Origin: a virus
IMG/VR virus record: IMGVR_UViG_3300032278_003045
Coordinates: 1 to 46,834 of that record
Length of the DNA: 46,834 bases
Strand: one strand, 5' to 3'
In this document: positions 6,162 to 21,033 of the stretch, one piece after another
How positions within the stretch are numbered: the stretch's first letter is position 1
Layout: every line of letters begins with the position of its first letter
The notes under the pieces: model-generated
The model's input: the letters and a program-made list of their open reading frames with translations, nothing else
What the model was told of the DNA's origin: nothing
Database searches by the model: none
Program-made: the position numbers and the translations under genes

Positions 6162-6656
6162 TTAGAATCGTGATACAAACCTTGCAATAGGTTGAACAAA
6201 AGGAAGCAAAGCAATTGCCATAAGAGCATTAACTCCCGTATGAACAATAGCTATTTGTTTTGTAATTCCTTGAGGCATTCCATCAGAAACCATTATTCCC
6301 GCTAACCAGATAGTACCAGTGGTTCCAATATTGGCTCCCAATACTGCCGCAATCGCAGATGGTAGAGGTAATGCACCTGAAGCTACAAGTCCTATTATTG
6401 CAGTTGTAGAAAGTGATGAAGATTGCCAGAGAAGAGTACACGCAATTGCTCCAAAAAACATAAAATAAGGATTGTGTATGAAATATTCAAGATGTTCTAA
6501 TTTACCCATTGATTTCATGCCACCAGAAAACATTTTTAAACCAATGTAAAAAATCACTAACCCTAAAAGGGTCTGCATAATGGGATTATTAAATTCCATA
6601 AGATTTCCTTTTTTATATTTCCATCTATCGTAAAGTGTTCTATGTTTCTTTTTCAT
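6162..6656 (-). CDS. Single-repeat Na/Pi cotransporter-like membrane protein (NptA/PF02690 type), 164 aa
   Basis: The protein shows one Na/Pi-cotransporter repeat: a helix at 29-47, then TLLWQSSSLSTTAIIGLVAS with the Q78-S-S-S81 signature, followed by GALPLPSAIAAVLGANIGTT (GANIGTT is the second hallmark) and a final helix ALMAIALLPFVQP. Bacterial members usually have two inverted repeats with two QSSS motifs plus a PhoU-like domain and are over 500 residues; this one is only half. It may work as a homodimer, or pair with a host half. Phosphate uptake would serve phage DNA synthesis. ATG at 6656 overlaps the guaC stop by one base (TAATG). Met20 is an alternative start. Confidence 0.8.
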   Translation of the reverse strand: MKKKHRTLYDRWKYKKGNLMEFNNPIMQTLLGLVIFYIGLKMFSGGMKSMGKLEHLEYFIHNPYFMFFGAIACTLLWQSSSLSTTAIIGLVASGALPLPSAIAAVLGANIGTTGTIWLAGIMVSDGMPQGITKQIAIVHTGVNALMAIALLPFVQPIARFVSRF

Positions 6657-7651
6657 TAATTAAAAACCGTATTTAATTGTCGATTAACCTTGACAAATGT
6701 AGTACATTTGGGTAAATCTTTAATTGATTTTGCACCAGCATATGTACAAGCACTTCGTAATCCTCCTAAGATTTCTTGTACTGTATCTGCTACATTACCT
6801 CTGTATGGAACTTGAACAGTCTTTCCCTCTGATGCACGATAAGATTGTTTTTCTCCGTAATGTTTAATTTGTGCATCTTCGGAAGACATACCATAAAATG
6901 TCATTGTTTTATTTTCATCATCCCATCCGTCACATTCTTTATGTCCAGCCAGCATACCACCAAGCATTACAAAATCTGCGCCAGCTCCAAAACTTTTTGC
7001 AATATCTCCTACAACTGTACATCCTCCGTCTGTGATGATATGTCCACTAAGACCATGAGCCGCATCTGCACATTCCAATGTAGCACTTAGTTGTGGATAT
7101 CCAACGCCTGTCATTTTACGAGTTGTGCATACTGATCCAGGACCTATTCCTATTTTTACAACATCTGCTCCCGCTAAAAGTATTTGTTCAGTCGCTTCTG
7201 GTGTACATACATTTCCTGCTATGATTATTTTGTCTTTAGTTGCTTCATGACTTCTCATCAATGCAACATAATCATTAAAACGTTCTGTATATCCATTTGC
7301 TACATCAAGACATATCCACGGTGCATTAGGAGAATCATAAGGCAATTCATCTAAATTTTGATCTAATCCGATTGTTCTTATTATATTATTATTCCACCCC
7401 CATTCTGTAGACTCAACAAACTTACATAATGCTGTAAGCATAGGAAACTCCATAAGAGCATGAGCCATGGCAATAGTTCCCGTATGATCCATATTGGATG
7501 CAATTATAGGAATACCAGTCCATTGATGCTTCGAATGCTTAAACTTAAATTTTCTTTCGAGATTTGCTTTTTTGCGTGAAACTAGGGTGGATCTTTTGGG
7601 CTTGATTAGAACATCATCAAAATCAAGTTTTATATCATCTTGTATTCTCAT
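6656..7651 (-). CDS. guaC: GMP reductase
   Basis: The 331-residue protein matches bacterial GuaC over its full length. It opens with DIKLDFDDVLIKPKRSTL and continues with PIIASNMDHTGT, ICLDVANGYTERF, IIAGNVCTPEATEQI, then the catalytic loop KIGIGPGSVCTTR with Cys175, ITDGGCTVVGDIAKSFGAGA, FVMLGGMLAGH and FYGMSSEDA, ending RGNVADTVQEILGGLRSACT. The enzyme reduces GMP to IMP with NADPH, releasing ammonia, so it interconverts salvaged guanine nucleotides with the adenine branch. The E. coli enzyme is 347 aa. I used the ATG at 7651, which aligns with the usual N terminus, rather than a TTG four codons earlier. It is coupled to the phosphate transporter gene and belongs functionally to the purine cassette at 9-16 kb. 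Confidence 0.95.
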   Translation of the reverse strand: MRIQDDIKLDFDDVLIKPKRSTLVSRKKANLERKFKFKHSKHQWTGIPIIASNMDHTGTIAMAHALMEFPMLTALCKFVESTEWGWNNNIIRTIGLDQNLDELPYDSPNAPWICLDVANGYTERFNDYVALMRSHEATKDKIIIAGNVCTPEATEQILLAGADVVKIGIGPGSVCTTRKMTGVGYPQLSATLECADAAHGLSGHIITDGGCTVVGDIAKSFGAGADFVMLGGMLAGHKECDGWDDENKTMTFYGMSSEDAQIKHYGEKQSYRASEGKTVQVPYRGNVADTVQEILGGLRSACTYAGAKSIKDLPKCTTFVKVNRQLNTVFN

Positions 7652-7655
7652 TTTT

Positions 7656-8147
7656 TTATTCAAATAGCACGGTTCCGGGATAGTTTTTATTTTTTAAGAC
7701 TAGTATATATTGTAACATATTTACTAACTCTTGGCAAGGCTTTTCTTGGCTAATTTTACAAACAATAGTCATATTTTTTAGTTGTAATAATTGTTTTAAG
7801 TCTGTATACAATTTATTTACATTTGATGGAGCATTCAAATCGATGCGTAAGGGGAAAATATCAAATTGAACCTTATTAAAGCTCTTAAACTCTTCCAAAA
7901 CAACTAAATCTGTCGGATCTTTAAAATTTAATGACACCCAACTTTTTAATTTAATAAGATCAAAGAATTCATTTATTTTTTTTAATGCCTCATATCGCCA
8001 GAATATTTTCTGCATTGTCAACGTAGAACCCGTTGGTCCAGGAAAATTGTAAATATCAATTGAAGATGGATTGATTGCATGAAGTGTCGTGGACTGTTCA
8101 TTCCATTGTTCATTTATTTCTTTATCAAAATCTATCACAAAATTCAT
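7656..8147 (-). CDS. Hypothetical protein, 163 aa
   Basis: I do not recognise this protein. It looks like a small alpha/beta domain: IFWRYEALKKINEFFDLIKL is helical, VQFDIFPLRIDLNAP and MTIVCKISQEKPCQELVNML look like strand-helix units, and the C terminus is NKNYPGTVLFE. No catalytic motif or membrane segment is visible. It ends four bases before the guaC start and begins 9 bases after a 32-codon ORF. Confidence 0.55.
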   Translation of the reverse strand: MNFVIDFDKEINEQWNEQSTTLHAINPSSIDIYNFPGPTGSTLTMQKIFWRYEALKKINEFFDLIKLKSWVSLNFKDPTDLVVLEEFKSFNKVQFDIFPLRIDLNAPSNVNKLYTDLKQLLQLKNMTIVCKISQEKPCQELVNMLQYILVLKNKNYPGTVLFE

Positions 8148-10002: not shown

Positions 10003-11247
10003 TTAAAATTGTTCTTCTTCAGTTGAACCTTTAACTGCACTTAAAGTGTCACTATTTGTACAAATTTGTCCAACTGCATCAAAATAACTTGCACCAACTT
10101 CACGTTGATGTTTTATTGCTGTAAATCCACGATCCTGAGCTTCAAATTCTTTTTCTTGAAAATTTACAAATGCAGTCATTCCTGTTTTTCCATATTTCCA
10201 AGCTAAATCAAACATACTAAAATTCAATGAATGAAATCCTGCAAGAGTTATAAATTGATACTTGACACCCAAATCACCCAAGTCATCTTTAAAACTACGT
10301 ATTTGTTCATCAGTTAGATTTTCTTTCCAATTAAATGACGGAGAACAATTATATGCAAATAATTTTTCTGGATGCTCTTTGCGAATTTCTTGTATAAATT
10401 CTTTACATTCACCTATATCAGGCACAGATGTCTCCATCCAAAGTAAATCACAGTAAGGCGCATATGCAAGTCCTCTTGAGACTGCTTGTTCCATTCCCGC
10501 CTTTACTCTAAAAAATCCCTCTTCAGTACGTTCTCCAGTTATAAATTCGTGATCATATTCATCAGCATCAGAAGACAATAATGCTCCCGCTAATGAATCT
10601 GTTCTTGCAATTATTATAGTGTCAACATCTAATATATCTGCGGCAAATCTTGTTGCAATAAGTTTGGAAACCATTTCTTGAGTGGGAACTATAACTTTTC
10701 CGCCCATATGTCCACATTTTTTAGCAGAAGATAACTGATCTTCTAAATGCACACCTGCGACACCCGCTTCAATCATGTCCTTCATTAGTTCATGTGTATT
10801 AAGAACACCACCAAATCCCGATTCCATATCTGCAACAATAGGAATAAAATAATCTACATCTCCTTTTTGCTCCATTGTTTGAATTTGATCTGCACGAATA
10901 AATGTATTATTAATTGCTTTGACCACTCTTGGTACACTATTAACTGCATATAATGACTGATCTGGATACATTTCTAAACTATCATTCGCATCACCAGCCA
11001 CCTGCCATCCAGAAAGATAAACAGAATCTAATCCAGCTTTTGCTTGTTGCATTGCTTGATTACCCGTTAATGCTCCCAATGCACTTACGTAAGGTGTAAC
11101 TGTTGAATGAAGTTTTCTCCATAATTTTTCTGCACCATTTTTTGCTAAAGTATATTCTATTTTAAGTGAACCACCTAAACGATCTACATCATCTTGTGTA
11201 TATGGACGTGTAATATTGTCCCATCGATTATTAAATTTACTACTCAT
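10003..11247 (-). CDS. aceA: Isocitrate lyase
   Basis: This is a full-length isocitrate lyase of 414 residues (E. coli AceA has 434). It starts RWDNITRPYTQDDVDRLGGS and includes ALGALTGNQAMQQAKAGLDS, VYLSGWQVAGDAND, MYPDQSLYAVNSVP, the active-site block AKKCGHMGGKV with catalytic Cys178 in the KKCGH signature, IIARTDSLAGALL, FITGERTEEGFF, NCSPSFNWKENL and FITLAGFHSLNFSMFDLA, ending GSTEEEQF. It splits isocitrate into succinate and glyoxylate. No malate synthase is in the window, so the glyoxylate may go to glycine or to host malate synthase. The start overlaps the APRT-like gene by 8 bases, placing it inside the purine operon. I see no sign of truncation or decay. Confidence 0.97.
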   Translation of the reverse strand: MSSKFNNRWDNITRPYTQDDVDRLGGSLKIEYTLAKNGAEKLWRKLHSTVTPYVSALGALTGNQAMQQAKAGLDSVYLSGWQVAGDANDSLEMYPDQSLYAVNSVPRVVKAINNTFIRADQIQTMEQKGDVDYFIPIVADMESGFGGVLNTHELMKDMIEAGVAGVHLEDQLSSAKKCGHMGGKVIVPTQEMVSKLIATRFAADILDVDTIIIARTDSLAGALLSSDADEYDHEFITGERTEEGFFRVKAGMEQAVSRGLAYAPYCDLLWMETSVPDIGECKEFIQEIRKEHPEKLFAYNCSPSFNWKENLTDEQIRSFKDDLGDLGVKYQFITLAGFHSLNFSMFDLAWKYGKTGMTAFVNFQEKEFEAQDRGFTAIKHQREVGASYFDAVGQICTNSDTLSAVKGSTEEEQF

Positions 11248-11827
11248 CTTGATTTCCTAATCGAAAAATTGGTAATTTTGCAAGATATATTAAATCATCT
11301 TTATCATATCCTGCTTCCTCTAATAATACTGTCGCTTTACAAACAACAGTACAGTTAATTTTCTCTAGTATTTTTTGTAATCCTACAATAGATCCACCTG
11401 TAGAAACTACATCATCAACAATACAAACATTCTTTCCTTCTAACTTATCAACATCACATTTATCCAAAACAAGTGTTTGCGCTCCTATGGTTGTGATAGA
11501 TTGAACTTTCTCTATCATAGGATCCGTCATATATCCCTTAACACCTTTTCTTGCTACAACATAATCAACTGACATATGATTTGAAATACAATGTGCTAAA
11601 GCAATTCCTTTTGCTTCTGGAACAACTATTATATCTATATCAAGTTTACGAGTATCCAATTGATAAAATAATGCATCGGCACACTTTTCTATTAAGTCAG
11701 TATCTCCAAGCATGACAAAGCTCGCAATGGCGAGCTTGTCATTTATTTTAACTTTAGGAAGTTTTCTAGTAAGTCCTGCGACTTTTAATTCATAAAACTC
11801 ATCTTTAAAACTATTTCCCCAAGCCAT
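11240..11827 (-). CDS. Adenine phosphoribosyltransferase-like purine PRTase, 195 aa
   Basis: A type I phosphoribosyltransferase. The PRPP-binding loop is VCIVDDVVSTGGSIVGL, with the paired acidic residues and S-T-G-G. An upstream IDIIVVPEAKGIALAHCISN corresponds to the first PRPP loop, and YVVARKGVKGYMTDP to the flexible loop of APRT/XPRT-like enzymes. It would join a free purine base to PRPP, giving the nucleotide. The subgroup with GYMTDP and VQSITT is often found beside NCS2 permeases in bacteria and is not identical to classical Apt, so adenine specificity is uncertain; hypoxanthine or xanthine is possible. It is one base downstream of the permease gene. A strong intragenic hairpin is described separately. 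Confidence 0.88.
   Translation of the reverse strand: MAWGNSFKDEFYELKVAGLTRKLPKVKINDKLAIASFVMLGDTDLIEKCADALFYQLDTRKLDIDIIVVPEAKGIALAHCISNHMSVDYVVARKGVKGYMTDPMIEKVQSITTIGAQTLVLDKCDVDKLEGKNVCIVDDVVSTGGSIVGLQKILEKINCTVVCKATVLLEEAGYDKDDLIYLAKLPIFRLGNQDE
11714..11740 (-). other. Strong intragenic hairpin in the APRT-like gene
   Basis: GACAAAGCTCGC and GCGAGCTTGTC flank a 4-base loop, giving an 11-bp stem with one bulged A. It lies in codons 30-38 of the APRT-like gene. There is no U-run after it, so it is not an intrinsic terminator. It might pause ribosomes or be an RNase processing site, or may only reflect the codons. Confidence 0.4.
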
Positions 11828-11828
11828 A

Positions 11829-12962
11829 TTATGCTCCCATAAAAATTAATTGAGTAACAAATCCTGCAACCAATCCATAGAATGGATTCCATTTCATAGT
11901 CACAAATGCAGTTGCACCAATCACCATTCCTGCTGGTCCAAATCCATATGGTCCTGCAAATTCTCCGCCTTGAGCAATTGCACCATTTATATTAGTCATA
12001 AATGTTACGAAAACGCCCAATACAAAAAGAAATCCTGCAATGGATGCTCTATGTACATATTGTCCTATGACAGGAAGCAATTTAGTTAAAAGAATAACCG
12101 CCATAATACCCATCATAATACAAGATGCTACAACTGGCATGGGTGCAGTAGCAGTTCCAGAAATAATTGCTTCAACTGGTCCACCACCAAAGAATGCTGA
12201 ACCCATATCAGCAAGACTAGAATATATTGCAAGATGATCAATATTAGTTTCTGCACCAGCAATAGATCCTGTGATCTTACCGAATGATATATTTGCTCCA
12301 ATGTTTAAACATGCAAGAGATAATGCACCGAGGACGATATTCCTATTTGTCCAGAATTTCCACTCAATGTTTCCTGTAGTGAATTTTTCTCTCTCCTTAT
12401 CAACTGTAATTTCTTCAAGTTCAACACCTAATGTTGTTCTCAATTCTGAATTGAATTTAAGTAAAACATAAAATGCAGTTGAAATCATTACAGATGCTAT
12501 GATAGTCCATGCTAAATCTTTTGTCCAAAACCAGACAATCAATGCACTAGCCATAGATACTATACCTGTCCATTTTTCTGAATTGAACAAATCTATTGCT
12601 ACATTTGCAAGCATCAATCCAACTCCACACATCATAGATGTGACAACAATTGGGCCGATAAACTGTACAAGTGCTTCGTTCATTCCTAAGAGTGAAGGAA
12701 TTAACAATAATGCGGCACCCCAAAATATGAGAGATAATCTCTCTTTCATATTATTACCTAAAGTACCAGCAAGAGTAATCGTTTCTGCTTGAAACGATAT
12801 GGTTGCTACTGATGCAAATGCTATTGATCCTATAATACCAATAACAAATGCAATTGCAGTAGGAAAAGCGGCAAACCCAAAAGACAATGCTAAAATCCCT
12901 TGAGGAATACCGTTAATAACAACCGCTATTGCGGTCAGAATGCTTTCAAATAAGCCTTCCAT
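11829..12962 (-). CDS. NCS2-family purine permease, 377 aa
   Basis: A polytopic membrane protein with about 10-12 hydrophobic segments. The start MEGLFESILTAIAVVINGIP followed by PQGILALSFGFAAFPTAIAF and ISFQAETITLAGTLGNNM with KERLSLIFWG is typical of a compact (about 380 aa) branch of the NCS2 (xanthine/uracil/AzgA-related) transporters. The later stretch SAFFGGGPVEAIISGTATAP resembles the second half-helix substrate region. NCS2 proteins import nucleobases by proton or sodium symport. A cytoplasmic loop at about residues 174-200 is rich in charges. Neighbouring deaminase and phosphoribosyltransferases make a purine base the likely cargo. ATG at 12962 follows GGAT/AAGG-like bases; the gap to the 2OG oxygenase gene is 21 bases. 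Confidence 0.88.
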   Translation of the reverse strand: MEGLFESILTAIAVVINGIPQGILALSFGFAAFPTAIAFVIGIIGSIAFASVATISFQAETITLAGTLGNNMKERLSLIFWGAALLLIPSLLGMNEALVQFIGPIVVTSMMCGVGLMLANVAIDLFNSEKWTGIVSMASALIVWFWTKDLAWTIIASVMISTAFYVLLKFNSELRTTLGVELEEITVDKEREKFTTGNIEWKFWTNRNIVLGALSLACLNIGANISFGKITGSIAGAETNIDHLAIYSSLADMGSAFFGGGPVEAIISGTATAPMPVVASCIMMGIMAVILLTKLLPVIGQYVHRASIAGFLFVLGVFVTFMTNINGAIAQGGEFAGPYGFGPAGMVIGATAFVTMKWNPFYGLVAGFVTQLIFMGA

Positions 12963-12983
12963 ATTATCCTTTCATATACTATA

Positions 12984-13934
12984 TTATTGATTTTCTGGAA
13001 GATACTGTTGACCTTCTATACTCATCTCATTATTCTCTATATAAGAATTATCCACATAAGACTGTGATAATCTCCATTTAAGATATTCATATGCAGAAAT
13101 TGGGTCAAATTGGTCAGGTTGATCTGTGAAATTTTCTATTATCACATCACGACCAGGATCAACAAAATATGGCATCGAATATCTCGATTTTGACATATCA
13201 GTATTCACCACTCTATGATTAGTAGATTTGAGAATTCCGTTTGACCATCTTGAAAGCATATCAGCTACATTTAATACTATACTATTTTCTACACAAGGAA
13301 CATCTTCCCATTCACCTGTTTCCTTATTCTCTACTTGTAACCCTCCTGTATCATCAAATCTCCACAAAAGAGTTATACTACCATAATCAGTATGTCTACC
13401 CCCTCTCAACTGTCCTTCTTTAATTTCTTCTTCCCATTTTGGATAGTGTATCATTCTCATTGTTGCGCTTCCATCTACGTGTTTTTCTACAAGAAACCCT
13501 CTTGGAAGAGAAAACATTTCTTCAAATTTGTATACAAATTCATATGAAAGCAATCGTGCGATGCGTTCTATTTTCTGTGCCATTGGTTTGAATTTTGGTA
13601 TCCCTAATTCTCTTGGCCAATATTTTTTTTGCATTCTATCAGGTGATACCCAGTTGTAACTTTCTTTGATATCACCTGGAGATGTTGGCGTGAGTCGTTC
13701 TTCCTCCAACCAATTATAACCAAGATTTTCTTTTACGCCACTATATGCACATCGTTTTTTCACAGTCAAGGGTAGTTGGAAGAACTCTTCCATAAGTAGC
13801 TTCCATTGGGAAAATTCCGATAACCATTCATCATAAACATTAATGAATACTGCGAAACCTACTGTAGTATAGGCATCGTACATTTCTTGTAAACAAGTTT
13901 TACTTTTGAAATCTATTATCGGAACCGAATTCAT
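12984..13934 (-). CDS. IPNS-like 2-oxoglutarate/Fe(II) dioxygenase, 316 aa
   Basis: The protein has the isopenicillin-N-synthase-like fold signature. The N-terminal DIOX_N part runs from VPIIDF with the helix CLQEMYDAYTTVGFAVFINV. The catalytic part has MRMIHYPKW, then GRHTDYGSITLLW with iron ligands H181 and D183, STNHRVVN with H240, and SRYSMPYFV with R251-x-S for 2-oxoglutarate. It would couple 2OG decarboxylation to succinate with hydroxylation of a small molecule. The substrate is unknown. IPNS-like members include thymine 7-hydroxylase, and the flanking purine genes make a nucleobase or related compound attractive. ATG at 13934 overlaps the deaminase stop by one base. No residue essential for the chemistry is missing. 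Confidence 0.9.
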   Translation of the reverse strand: MNSVPIIDFKSKTCLQEMYDAYTTVGFAVFINVYDEWLSEFSQWKLLMEEFFQLPLTVKKRCAYSGVKENLGYNWLEEERLTPTSPGDIKESYNWVSPDRMQKKYWPRELGIPKFKPMAQKIERIARLLSYEFVYKFEEMFSLPRGFLVEKHVDGSATMRMIHYPKWEEEIKEGQLRGGRHTDYGSITLLWRFDDTGGLQVENKETGEWEDVPCVENSIVLNVADMLSRWSNGILKSTNHRVVNTDMSKSRYSMPYFVDPGRDVIIENFTDQPDQFDPISAYEYLKWRLSQSYVDNSYIENNEMSIEGQQYLPENQ

Positions 13935-14929
13935 TAAAAATCCTTTATGAAGTTATCAATATTTTTAATATGATTCTCTTTTTCTTCTTCTGGTAAAAAA
14001 CTAAACTTAAAACTGTTCTTCGCCAAATCAGCAATCATCCAATAATCCATATTAAATGCTTGTTGAACTTCATAATAATTCTCATTAATATATCCTCTAA
14101 AATATGCAGGATCATCAGAATTGATTGTTATTGGAATTCCTCTATCCATTAATCGTTTAAGATTGTGATTCTCCATTTTATCAAATATTTTCAGTTTAAC
14201 ATTTGAAAAAGGACAAACTGTTAATGATATTTGTTCATCAACTAATCTTTGCATCAATTTCTCATCATCTTCACATTGTACACCATGATCTATTCTTTCA
14301 ACGTTAAGAAAATCTAACGTATCTGTAATATGCTTTGGGGATTCTTCTCCAGTATGACATACTCTATGAAATCCAAGTTGTTCTGCTTTTTTAAATACTT
14401 CTGTAAATAATTCTGGCGGATAACCTTCTTCAATACCATCTAATCCAACACCAACTATTCTATGTTGATATTGATATTTGTTTGCTTCTTCTAATATATC
14501 AAAAGCTGATTCTATACTAAAAGTACGATTAAAATCTAAAATTAAATATGAAGAAATATTTGATTCACACAATGCCCGATCAATTCCATTGAATACTGTT
14601 TCGAAAGAAACTCCACGTTTAATATGATTTTGTGGATTGAATAAAATTTCTGTATGTCTTACATTGTCTAAATGAATTCGATCCATATAGGCTTTAGTAA
14701 GATCGTAAAAATCTTGTTCAGTACATAAAACTTCCAGACCACCATAATATAATTTCAAAAATGAACTTAAATTTTGAAAATCATAAGCTGAATATACAGA
14801 ATCTATTCCATCATAGGGCACATTAATATTATTTCGTGTCGCCATTTCAAGCAACATTTTTGGTTCTAATGTGCCCTCAAGATGAACATGTAACTCCGCT
14901 TTGGGAATTCCCTCAATTAAAGTCTGCAT
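13934..14929 (-). CDS. Adenine/adenosine deaminase (Add superfamily, adenine-deaminase-like)
   Basis: A 331-residue amidohydrolase with the metal ligands H14 and H16 (AELHVHLEG), H192 with catalytic E195 (VCHTGEES), H215 (ERIDHGV), and D272 (INSDDPAYF). The segment GTLEPKMLLEMATRN, the FQNLSSFLKLYYGGLEVL block and LTVCPFSNVKLKIFDKM resemble the adenine deaminase (EC 3.5.4.2) subgroup more than true adenosine deaminases. It would turn adenine into hypoxanthine and ammonia; adenosine remains an alternative substrate. The gene lies 6 bases downstream of the BMP binding-protein gene and is coupled to the oxygenase, inside the purine operon. The product hypoxanthine is the natural substrate for the phosphoribosyltransferases nearby. 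Confidence 0.92.
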   Translation of the reverse strand: MQTLIEGIPKAELHVHLEGTLEPKMLLEMATRNNINVPYDGIDSVYSAYDFQNLSSFLKLYYGGLEVLCTEQDFYDLTKAYMDRIHLDNVRHTEILFNPQNHIKRGVSFETVFNGIDRALCESNISSYLILDFNRTFSIESAFDILEEANKYQYQHRIVGVGLDGIEEGYPPELFTEVFKKAEQLGFHRVCHTGEESPKHITDTLDFLNVERIDHGVQCEDDEKLMQRLVDEQISLTVCPFSNVKLKIFDKMENHNLKRLMDRGIPITINSDDPAYFRGYINENYYEVQQAFNMDYWMIADLAKNSFKFSFLPEEEKENHIKNIDNFIKDF

Positions 14930-14935
14930 TACAAT

Positions 14936-16024
14936 TTAAGATCCTGGAAATTTATTTACAATACCTTCTACAAAAAAGTCCATTGTTTCCAATGCGTGTC
15001 TTTTAATAGTATTAGCAGGAATTTTCGTTCCATCCTTTTTAGTAACACCTTGTGAAAAAGGAAAATATATGTCCATCTCATCATTAATCCAGTTCATCTT
15101 AATAGTTTCAACGTGATTAACAACTGCGCCAGGAACATTTACACCCCATGGCGATAGACCAACACAATTTTCTTTCAAACCCCAACTATATCTTTGGCCC
15201 ATTTTAAGTTTACCAGCCGCAAGTTGATCAACAATATGTTTGTATAAAACATTCCAGTTGAACATCATACCTGTGATGTATCGATCTGGTCCATTACTTC
15301 CCATAGGCGCATCATTACCCATACTCCAAACTTCTCTACCATCAGCTTTCCATGCACTTTGTGCAAGAGTCACTACACTTGGTGAGTCAGTTGTAGTAAA
15401 TAAAACATCATTCCCGTCATCGAGAAGAGCTTTGGCCGCATCCATATCTTTAGGTGGATCAAACCATGAATTAATCCATACGATATTAACTTCTGCTTTT
15501 GGATTAATTGTTCTTGCACCAATTATAACTGCATTAATATTACGAATGATTTCAGGAATTGGATGAGAACCAACTATACCAATTTTACCAGTTTTTGTCA
15601 GCATTCCTGCCGCAACTCCTGCAAGATATCGTGCTTGATAACTCATACAACTATAGTTGTCCATATTTTTATCATTACCCTTATAGCCTGTGGCGTGCAT
15701 AAAAATCGTATTGGGATCTTTAGCGGCGGCCTTAACCATTGGGTCCATATAACCAAATGAGGTAGCAAAAACGATATCATGTTTTCGCCCAAGTTTACGA
15801 AATACTTTTTGTGACTCGGCTTCCGGAACCATTTCCACCATACTAACTTCATAACCGTGCTTTGTTAATGATTGGAATCCTTGATGATGTCTCATTGACC
15901 ATCCACCATCGGTGTGTGGTCCCACTAGAACATACCCAACTGAAGGTAATTTCTTACCAACGATAACAGTACTTATGACTGCAAACATTGCGGTCACCGC
16001 CACTAGGGCTATTAATTTTTTCAT
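14936..16024 (-). CDS. BMP-family (PnrA-like) ABC transporter substrate-binding protein
   Basis: The 362-residue protein has an N-terminal signal anchor (KKLIALVAVTAMFAVISTVI) and then the BMP/PnrA fold: VGYVLVGPHTDGGWSMRHHQ, DIVFATSFGYMDPM, IFMHATGYKGND, YLAGVAAGMLTKTGKIGIVG, INSWFDPPKDMDAAKALLDD, DVLFTTTDSPSVVTLAQ and WSMGNDAPMG. Family members bind purine nucleosides or related molecules for ABC import. No lipobox Cys is visible. No permease or ATPase genes follow, so the host transporter would be needed. A good AAGGAAG Shine-Dalgarno lies five bases upstream of the ATG. It is the first gene of the operon and follows a terminator hairpin. Confidence 0.92.
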   Translation of the reverse strand: MKKLIALVAVTAMFAVISTVIVGKKLPSVGYVLVGPHTDGGWSMRHHQGFQSLTKHGYEVSMVEMVPEAESQKVFRKLGRKHDIVFATSFGYMDPMVKAAAKDPNTIFMHATGYKGNDKNMDNYSCMSYQARYLAGVAAGMLTKTGKIGIVGSHPIPEIIRNINAVIIGARTINPKAEVNIVWINSWFDPPKDMDAAKALLDDGNDVLFTTTDSPSVVTLAQSAWKADGREVWSMGNDAPMGSNGPDRYITGMMFNWNVLYKHIVDQLAAGKLKMGQRYSWGLKENCVGLSPWGVNVPGAVVNHVETIKMNWINDEMDIYFPFSQGVTKKDGTKIPANTIKRHALETMDFFVEGIVNKFPGS

Positions 16025-19241: not shown

Positions 19242-19631
19242 TTAAGTATTTATTTCTTGTTTACTTTTATAATCTGCTATTGCCCCCTTAATTGCATCTT
19301 CTGCAAGAACTGAACAATGAATTTTTACTGGGGGCAATGATAATTCTTTCACGATAACTGTATTATCTAACGCAAATGCTTCATCCAACGATCTGCCCTT
19401 AACCCATTCAGTTGCCAATGAAGAACTTGCAATTGCAGAACCACATCCAAATGTTTTAAATTTTGCATCAACAATTTTATCATTATCATCCACCTTTATT
19501 TGTAATTTCATTACATCACCGCATTCTGGAGCACCTACAAGTCCTGTTCCAATGGTTGGATCGTTTTTATCAAAACTTCCAATATTTTTAGGGTTTTCAA
19601 AATGCGCCACTACTTTATCTGAATATGCCAT
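19242..19631 (-). CDS. iscU: IscU-type Fe-S cluster scaffold
   Basis: The 129 residues align with E. coli IscU without gaps around the active site. C37-G-D39 (GAPECGDVM), C63 (FKTFGCGSAIASSSLATEW) and C106 (KIHCSVLAEDAI) are the cluster ligands in the same numbering, and L99-PPVK103 is the HscA chaperone recognition motif. It would assemble [2Fe-2S] clusters with a host cysteine desulfurase (IscS/SufS), since none is encoded here. The retained LPPVK suggests it uses host HscA/HscB. It is 1 base downstream of an A-type carrier gene, forming a three-gene Fe-S module. Complete and apparently functional. Confidence 0.97.
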   Translation of the reverse strand: MAYSDKVVAHFENPKNIGSFDKNDPTIGTGLVGAPECGDVMKLQIKVDDNDKIVDAKFKTFGCGSAIASSSLATEWVKGRSLDEAFALDNTVIVKELSLPPVKIHCSVLAEDAIKGAIADYKSKQEINT

Positions 19632-19632
19632 T

Positions 19633-20037
19633 TTATTTCCATCCTAAGTGTTGTTTTCCGTCTGCAGGAATATCTTTTACTGGTGTAAAACTCTCTCCAC
19701 ATCCACAGACATGCTCAAATTTGAGCCGTTTAAATATAAAACCCTGTTCTACTAAATTGCCTACTTTATAATCTACTTCTACATCACCAATTATATCATT
19801 AAGCATGTATTCGTCTACTACTAATTTAACACCATTTTCTGTAAAAATTAAATCTTCTGGTTTAACACTATCTTCAACATCTAAACTATATTTCCACCCA
19901 GAACAACCACCAGAATCTGCTCCTACTCGTAAATAGGAATCCTCAAGGTCTTTTTTTTCATCTTCAATCATTTCTTTAAAAACACTCGCGGCTTTTTCAG
20001 AAATTTTAAGTTCACATCCAGGTTGGTTTTGTATCAT
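19633..20037 (-). CDS. A-type Fe-S carrier protein (IscA/ErpA/HesB family), copy 1
   Basis: The 134-residue protein has the HesB-like layout: ISEKAASVFKEMIEDE, LRVGADSGGCSGWKYSLDVE with Cys45, and the C-terminal VCGCGESF with Cys111 and Cys113. These three cysteines bind a [2Fe-2S] or [4Fe-4S] cluster for delivery to apoproteins. The sequence GCGESF is shared with ErpA/SufA types. Start at ATG 20037 is chosen over a GTG 16 codons upstream, since the usual N terminus begins with this helix. It overlaps the preceding carrier gene by 26 bases. A C-terminal extension of about 15 residues (DIPADGKQHLGWK) is unusual. Confidence 0.93.
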   Translation of the reverse strand: MIQNQPGCELKISEKAASVFKEMIEDEKKDLEDSYLRVGADSGGCSGWKYSLDVEDSVKPEDLIFTENGVKLVVDEYMLNDIIGDVEVDYKVGNLVEQGFIFKRLKFEHVCGCGESFTPVKDIPADGKQHLGWK

Positions 20038-20383
20038 TTTCCGTCTCTTCTGTGTGTTCGTACATGAATGAAGTCCTACAGCCACACGAACCTTTTGCTG
20101 AAGGATTATTAAATTTTAATCCACGATCATTTAAATTATCTGACCAATCAATTTCTGTATTTTTAATGTATAAATGACTTTTTTTATCACATAAAATATT
20201 TAGACCGAAAGATTCAAATTCTAAATCAAATTTGCCTTTTCTACTATCAAAATCCACTGTATAGGTAAATCCGGAACATCCTCCACCCTTAACACCAACA
20301 CGTACTACTGTGTCATCAGATACTTTTTGTTCTTGCATTATTCTCAATACTTTATTAGCGGCTTTTTCTGTAAATGATATCAT
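20012..20383 (-). CDS. A-type Fe-S carrier protein (IscA/HesB family), copy 2
   Basis: The 123-residue protein begins MISFTEKAANKVLRIMQEQK and shows RVGVKGGGCSGFTYTVDFD (Cys36) and KGSCGCRTSF (Cys100, Cys102), the three ligands of A-type carriers. It differs clearly from copy 1 (for example FNNPSAKGSCGCRTSF instead of the FEHVCGCGESF), so the pair is not a recent duplication but two classes, like IscA and ErpA/SufA. ATG 20383 has AGGA six to nine bases upstream. A HesB-like gene is common in cyanophages and related phages; two plus IscU is unusual. The tail is acidic. Confidence 0.93.
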   Translation of the reverse strand: MISFTEKAANKVLRIMQEQKVSDDTVVRVGVKGGGCSGFTYTVDFDSRKGKFDLEFESFGLNILCDKKSHLYIKNTEIDWSDNLNDRGLKFNNPSAKGSCGCRTSFMYEHTEETENDTKPTWM

Positions 20384-20400
20384 TTTTCCTGTATGTAAGA

Positions 20401-20424
20401 ACCCCATCTGCTTGCAGATGGGGT
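20401..20424 (-). terminator. Perfect 11-bp hairpin between the 75 aa gene and the Fe-S genes
   Basis: ACCCCATCTGC and GCAGATGGGGT are perfectly complementary around a 2-base loop. On the minus strand the hairpin is followed by TTCTTACAT, a poor U-run, so it may be a weak terminator, an mRNA-stabilising hairpin or a processing site. It lies 10 bases after the stop of the 75 aa gene and 18 bases before the A-type carrier start. Confidence 0.5.
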
Positions 20425-20662: not shown

Positions 20663-20737
20663 ATTATACCTTTCTGTGTGTATGTGTGTGTATCTGATTG
20701 TTTCTGTTCCAAGGCACAATCATAAGCCCGTCAGCAA

Positions 20738-20785
20738 TTAAGCGGCCAAAGCCACTTGTGCTGAATAATAATCGTCATTATTTGC
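20738..20785 (-). other. tmRNA tag peptide reading frame (ANNDDYYSAQVALAA)
   Basis: The resume codon GCA at 20785 opens a 15-codon frame, ANNDDYYSAQVALAA, closed by TAA at 20740-20738. Tags normally begin with Ala-Asn and end with a hydrophobic -ALAA or -AVAA degron recognised by ClpXP, as this one does. The stretch before it (TTAATC-GCA) resembles the conserved bases upstream of the resume codon. The DDYYSAQ middle would be available for adaptor (SspB) binding. Confidence 0.9.
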
Positions 20786-20867
20786 GATTAAGTTAAATGA
20801 CATTTTACATCTGTCAAGATGGTCTCCTCTGCATAATCACATTCAATCGAAATCTATTTCAGCCCCA

Positions 20868-20960
20868 TCAACGAAAGTCATATCCAATAAAAAGTGTGGC
20901 ATAAGTTATTCCCAATGCAAGTATTATAATTATTGCAAGCCACATTAATTTTTGTTCCAT
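20868..20960 (-). CDS. Membrane microprotein ORF inside the tmRNA intervening segment, 30 aa
   Basis: Between the CCA of the acceptor piece (ends 20970) and the GGGGCTG of the coding piece (starts 20866) lies an ORF of 30 codons. It encodes one membrane helix: MEQKLMWLAIIIILALGITY, then ATLFIGYDFR. AAGGA lies five bases before the ATG, immediately after the CCA, and the TGA stop ends 1 base before the tmRNA 5' end. The segment is normally cut out during maturation of two-piece tmRNA, so the precursor could double as mRNA. Translation is inferred from the fit and the ribosome binding site only. Confidence 0.6.
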   Translation of the reverse strand: MEQKLMWLAIIIILALGITYATLFIGYDFR

Positions 20961-21033
20961 GACATTCCTTGGTGGAGCTGATCGGAATCGCACCGATGTC
21001 TTAAATGCTACTCTACAGTATCATCAACTAAAA

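Follow-up and report, generated by a model that had tools for sequence, protein, structure and literature searches.

The window analysed here, a stretch of 46,834 nucleotides (positions 1 to 46,834 of the IMG/VR virus record IMGVR_UViG_3300032278_003045), encodes what looks like a working phage two-piece tmRNA gene on its minus strand (Table 1). In an Rfam scan at gathering thresholds, RF04321 (tmRNA_permuted) was the only model to pass. It matched positions 21028–20738 over its full length (model positions 1–213 of 213), with 95.9 bits against a gathering score of 47 and an E-value of 1.7e-17. ARAGORN likewise called a permuted tmRNA, with the resume codon GCA at 20785 and the tag ANNDDYYSAQVALAA, which is short and has a C-terminal degron-like ALAA followed by the stop codon. 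The acceptor piece, with its T-arm and the encoded CCA of ..CAGCTCC-ACCA, precedes the piece that begins with GGGGCTG and holds the tag frame. Together, GGGGCTG and CAGCTCC form an acceptor stem of 7 bp with the G3-U70 pair of alanine identity. An initial annotation, made from the letters of the window without database searches, had described a phage-encoded permuted tmRNA with this order of pieces, this acceptor stem and ends near 20970 and 20866, and the scans and a reading of the sequence bear it out on each of these points. Sigma-70 and terminator signals around the gene were close to shuffle expectation.

Table 1. Features of the permuted tmRNA locus, in window coordinates.
Feature	Position	Strand	Basis
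Acceptor piece: T-arm, CAGCTCC 3' strand, ACCA	20970..21028	-	RF04321, ARAGORN 3' tRNA domain, sequence
Terminal helix of the intervening sequence, 5' arm (approximate); extends the acceptor stem, contains the Shine-Dalgarno-like motif	20961..20972	-	Arm-permutation test
Shine-Dalgarno-like AAGGA, 5 nt ahead of the ATG; its first A doubles as the final base of the CCA	20966..20970	-	Sequence
Intervening sequence (IVS), 103 nt, predicted to be excised from the mature tmRNA	20867..20969	-	Lies between CCA and GGGGCTG
Putative IVS micro-gene, 30-aa single-TM peptide MEQKLMWLAIIIILALGITYATLFIGYDFR	20868..20960	-	Family A frame conservation, simulations, hydropathy
Terminal helix of the IVS, 3' arm (approximate); shares positions with the final codons and stop codon of the ORF	20867..20880	-	Arm-permutation test
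mRNA-like piece, mature 5' end GGGGCTG at 20866, 3' end at about 20690	20690..20866	-	RF04321, ARAGORN, beta_tmRNA
H-type pseudoknot upstream of the resume codon	20798..20821	-	Sequence
Tag frame ANNDDYYSAQVALAA and stop	20738..20785	-	ARAGORN

The H-type pseudoknot (CATCT/AGATG and TGAC/GTCA) that the initial annotation had placed 13 nt before the GCA is present and ends 12 nt ahead of it. In near relatives it is kept and invariant, and hence without covariation. Over diverse loci it was found in 15 of 85 regions against 9.2 expected in shuffles, which is not clearly above chance.

The same annotation had named an alphaproteobacterial host as the donor of the gene and had pointed to the Rfam tmRNA and alpha_tmRNA models as a check. 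RF04321 did exceed its gathering score, whereas alpha_tmRNA (RF01849) was not found among the matches listed in a permissive scan of the window. The best clade-specific model listed there was beta_tmRNA, with 40.2 bits, under its gathering score of 84; this sub-threshold match ends at 20689. The sequence pattern of the phage-type mature 5' end had two matches in 385 alphaproteobacterial genomes, neither of them a tmRNA gene. On these comparisons, descent from an alphaproteobacterial donor is not supported.

The RecA/UvsX protein of the window is most similar to those of phages Melnitz (69% identity) and HTVC008M (63%). DNA polymerase, helicase, ThyX and ribonucleotide reductase, named from their sequences, are also encoded. 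BLASTN and tblastn searches with the locus, the protein encoded upstream of it and the spacer peptide described below (family A) found nothing in 50,697 phage records, and a second spacer protein (family B) had a single weak match (E = 7) in the same records. Adjoining the tmRNA gene (19242–20401, minus strand) are genes for a NifU-like scaffold (PF01592) and two IscA-like paralogues (PF01521), that is, Fe-S assembly genes in a phage. The window further holds an apparent purine uptake and salvage cluster (11240–16024, minus strand) with a Bmp/PnrA-type binding protein, an adenosine deaminase and, named from sequence only, permease-like and phosphoribosyltransferase-like proteins, as well as a GMP reductase-like protein (6656–7663). 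An isocitrate lyase (PF00463) is encoded at 10003–11247 (minus strand), and its best match in the bacterial collection (81%) lies on a contig of a 'Chloroflexi' MAG. Contig PAAV01000031.1 (28465 bp; L241/L292/L345), binned in Chloroflexi MAG NAT137, carries the permuted tmRNA type of this phage with the IVS ORF MSSADMAIVVVLIVIGIIMAGTYFYFGG, together with the same tmRNA-upstream gene and an isocitrate lyase, and is probably a misbinned phage contig. We therefore dropped a host assignment from the isocitrate lyase: its best-matching MAG contig carries this tmRNA type and is probably phage itself, so the match gives no host.

The spacer that separates the two tmRNA pieces is filled by an open frame, which the initial annotation overlooked. 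From the CCA onwards, the IVS of the window reads AAGGA, 5 nt, ATG, 30 codons, TGA (20870–20868) and one base before the mature 5' end. The ORF thus starts 9 nt past the CCA and stops 1 nt short of the second piece, and its product MEQKLMWLAIIIILALGITYATLFIGYDFR consists of one hydrophobic segment with a charged N-terminus. We collected phage spacers by pattern scans of IMG/VR and by a scan with the upstream protein, which yielded 107 distinct IVS. An ORF of at least 20 codons, with its ATG within 24 nt of the CCA and its end before the mature 5' end, is present in 67 of the 107, a fraction that is not a prevalence because the loci were gathered with patterns biased to this tmRNA type. The stop codon lies 1–16 nt ahead of the mature 5' end in most loci. 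Many ORF-less spacers are shorter; cyano-type spacers are mostly 20–110 nt long and have paired ends. Anti-Shine-Dalgarno pairing of -4 kcal/mol or better was found for 60% of the 67 IVS ORFs, compared with 63% of the genes in the window and 16% of all ATGs.

The IVS ORFs encode either unrelated-looking peptides of 22–32 aa with a single transmembrane (TM) segment, or a basic protein of ~55 aa (family B). The peptide of the window belongs to family A, which comprises 39 distinct 30-codon sequences. Not one in-frame stop occurs in these 39 sequences, against 156 and 41 stops in the other two frames, and pN/pS is 0.45 in frame versus 0.80 and 1.34 in the others. A column-shuffle control on pN/pS, run on a 14-sequence subsample, was only suggestive (25 of 200 shuffles were as low), so we turned to a tree-based neutral simulation (FastTree topology, HKY, with kappa of 2.5 and four rate classes chosen by us). 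A mean of 20 of the 39 frames stayed intact in this simulation, and all 39 remained open in 0 of 200 runs. Two family A spacers are 104 nt long, and since their additional base precedes the main ATG, within the leader, the frame is kept there as well. At the level of substitution and stop patterns, this shows that the family A frame is under purifying selection.

Hydropathy exceeded that of dinucleotide shuffles for the family A peptide of the window (p = 0.002) and, at p ≤ 0.03, for representatives of families A, C, E, F, I and J and for one of two from family H; families D and G and the other H member were not significantly above shuffles. Families C to J are further TM peptides that appear from alignment to be unrelated or distantly related. 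The spacer proteins matched no Pfam or PHROG family at a meaningful E-value.

Family A was located in spacers only. A degenerate DNA pattern for it had 56 matches, of which 52 lie right after CCACCA and the other four are a 7-aa frame, so that 52 of 52 real matches are in an IVS. Family B (about 50–59 aa, basic, with a C-terminal HFxKDWDKDLWD) has a pN/pS of 0.30 in a close group, and its length changes preserve the frame. It is also encoded outside tmRNA genes (L433 and L439–L446), which speaks for B as an independent protein. At L439, L445 and L446, free-standing B directly follows the gene of a 29-aa TM peptide (MDYTGKWFIFLSAIAAGLILGQVLAVYTL or close to it), and at L440 and L444 a very similar frame lies upstream of B, from another start. 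The last of these is on a 134-kb contig (3300006841_000093) that also has a tmRNA (L355) with a spacer of about 32 nt, as judged by pattern positions. Two spacers, those of L177 and L357, contain B with a second TM ORF behind it, read from the sequence as MGVDFxALFIWNYGLY..., a pattern found in these two contigs only. Such arrangements hint that B and a TM peptide may form a two-protein module in some phages. No family-B-like protein was found by motif elsewhere in the window. At another locus (L044, 2649–2834, minus strand), a family B ORF with its own AAGGAG is followed by the second tmRNA piece, with a ..CCCCCTCCACCA stretch downstream of the tag and no T-arm or acceptor piece upstream; this is either a recombinant or an assembly chimera.

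We next aligned the mature tmRNAs, using 62 nt on the upstream side of the IVS and as much as 165 nt on its downstream side. The mature tmRNA of a family A locus with a 103-nt IVS (L156) is 100% identical to that of an ORF-less locus with a 25-nt IVS (L356). Family A loci share 98.2% identity with loci of family G, 97.4% with C, 96.9% with B, 96.0% with D and 95.2% with F. Near-identical mature tmRNAs with differing spacers show that the spacer is a site of exchangeable cassettes, replaced or lost on an otherwise unchanged tmRNA. Two loci (L009 and L052) have a 42-nt IVS that resembles an internal deletion of family A, retaining ATGGAAAAGAAAGT.. and ..TTCGTTGAT. Both helix arms are still present there, most of the ORF is lost and the tmRNA is kept, which makes the peptide dispensable for the tmRNA.

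The two arms of the helix base-pair and prolong the acceptor stem. When the 12 nt at the start and the 14 nt at the end of every IVS at least 60 nt long were compared (54 distinct arm pairs), native pairing had a mean of -8.5 kcal/mol, against -3.65 ± 0.30 kcal/mol for permuted arms, and 0 of 5000 permutations were as low; the spacer ends thus covary. Since cyano-type spacers without an ORF have the terminal helix too, we read it primarily as a processing feature. Where a spacer does bear an ORF, the Shine-Dalgarno motif and the end of the ORF lie within the helix. Translation could therefore be blocked by the helix, which counts against reading the frame as a micro-gene.

We consider it probable that the spacer of this phage tmRNA is a docking site for phage micro-genes, as judged from sequence comparisons. 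By its sequence and its conserved, selected frame, the spacer of the window is a full expression unit, with a Shine-Dalgarno motif, an ATG, a 30-codon ORF and a stop just ahead of the second piece; in related phages the same position is taken by family A, by another TM peptide of 22–32 aa or by the ~55 aa protein of family B. Swapping would likely proceed by homologous recombination in the conserved tmRNA halves. The precursor would serve first as the mRNA of the peptide; tRNA-processing nucleases would later cleave it to give the two-piece tmRNA. With the Shine-Dalgarno motif enclosed in a helix that prolongs the acceptor stem, translation would probably take place mainly on the nascent transcript and stop when the helix closes. 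The peptides may act in the membrane.

A more far-reaching version, which we put forward tentatively and regard as possible rather than probable, is that the tmRNA precursor is a timed dual-function transcript: as a nascent RNA it would be the messenger of a membrane micro-protein, and once the 3' arm of the spacer has been transcribed, the helix would bury the Shine-Dalgarno motif, end translation and present the processing sites, with the spacer as a general docking site for micro-gene exchange. If so, peptide synthesis and tmRNA maturation would be mutually exclusive.

The spacer ORF could instead be a selfish or addiction-type gene for a membrane-active peptide, possibly with B as its partner, to which the tmRNA gene offers a safe and recombination-prone home. 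The adjacency of TM peptide and B in free-standing copies and in two IVS would fit this, as would the gain, loss and replacement of spacer ORFs while the surrounding tmRNA stays nearly identical. We think it unlikely, as the spacer lacks genes for a recombinase or a homing endonuclease, most IVS have either the TM peptide or B but not both, and Pfam and PHROG link neither to a known family. It seems rather improbable that the ORF is a cis-acting leader, with the transit of ribosomes opening or delaying the terminal helix and so timing precursor processing, and with no need for the peptide itself. A leader would explain why the ORF fills the IVS almost exactly, with its Shine-Dalgarno motif and last codons inside the conserved helix and its stop, in most loci, only 1–16 nt short of the second piece. 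However, the peptide is conserved beyond mere openness of the frame (pN/pS of 0.45), membrane hydropathy recurs across families, family B stands free of any tmRNA, and a 25-nt ORF-less spacer occurs on an identical tmRNA. Least of all do we expect the IVS to be non-coding, with open frames as by-products of AT-rich sequence and pairing ends: frames of 22–30 codons do stay open in dinucleotide shuffles with a probability of 0.05–0.26, so that a single open frame is unsurprising, but about ten different spacer sequences have an ORF at the same position, the neutral simulation kept all family A frames open in 0 of 200 runs, pN/pS and stop counts are specific to the frame, the Shine-Dalgarno strength equals that of real genes, and family B has homologues that are ordinary free-standing ORFs.

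What is new here is a conserved putative micro-gene inside the predicted excised spacer of a tmRNA, at a position where related phages swap different small ORFs. A full-text literature search, with subscription papers mostly outside its coverage and priority thus uncertain, found no paper that describes a protein gene within the spacer of a permuted tmRNA. Our results suggest that, where a stable RNA is split, the segment removed between its pieces can be home to a protein gene under selection and can be exchanged with the RNA left undisturbed. They point to phage protein families of 22–59 aa whose ORFs gene callers can miss because an RNA gene surrounds them, and also to a possible coupling between translation and maturation of the precursor.

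The tmRNA itself is not new in such phages: two-piece tmRNAs have been described in the marine phages Melnitz and Pelagibacter phage Mosig, and 53 were counted in phage genomes, of which 50 came from marine or aquatic sources (Buchholz et al. 2022, PMC9004378). The window shares a phage-encoded permuted ssrA with these marine phages, and its RecA/UvsX is related to that of Melnitz. In Melnitz, ssrA is near a late-transcription coactivator (MZ577097.1 annotation), and among the matches listed in our Rfam scans of the window there was no glutamine riboswitch like that of Melnitz. Its spacer is treated as part of ssrA in the MZ577097.1 annotation and in the accessible part of PMC9004378, with no gene reported there. 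This 142-nt spacer has an unannotated ORF after GGAG, which overruns the mature 5' end by 42 nt; the 49-nt spacer of HTVC008M is without such an ORF. Melnitz excepted, the ORF-bearing relatives are metagenome contigs.

With the permuted tmRNAs of Alphaproteobacteria (RF01849, merged RF04321), the locus shares gene order, acceptor features, T-arm, CCA and the ALAA tag end, but unlike them it has no alpha_tmRNA match above cut-off. RF04321 was found in 178 of 190 alphaproteobacterial genomes. We sampled 50 bacterial loci, five of which ARAGORN did not read; the readable spacers are mostly 5–67 nt long, with outliers of 152 and 232 nt, and are not a random sample because the loci were partly picked for length and small genomes. 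No inner ORF of more than 20 codons was listed for them when the longest frame of each was tested, and in the 152- and 232-nt spacers the initial 24 nt are free of ATG. One alphaproteobacterial tmRNA with a 152-nt IVS (G002:C17:41304-41692) has an unusually long tag, ANDNVALVAANDNNFVADRAAA, which repeats its ANDN start.

A 2025 tmRNA survey describes single IVS that contain a tRNA-Ala or a repeat, and we found no mention of protein genes in IVS there (PMC11915505). Similar to the phage locus are tmRNA genes with group I introns that carry homing endonuclease ORFs (PMC11915505), which also place a protein gene within a removed segment of a tmRNA. Unlike in those genes, the segment in the phage is a permutation spacer rather than a self-splicing intron, and its predicted products are small TM or basic proteins rather than homing endonucleases.
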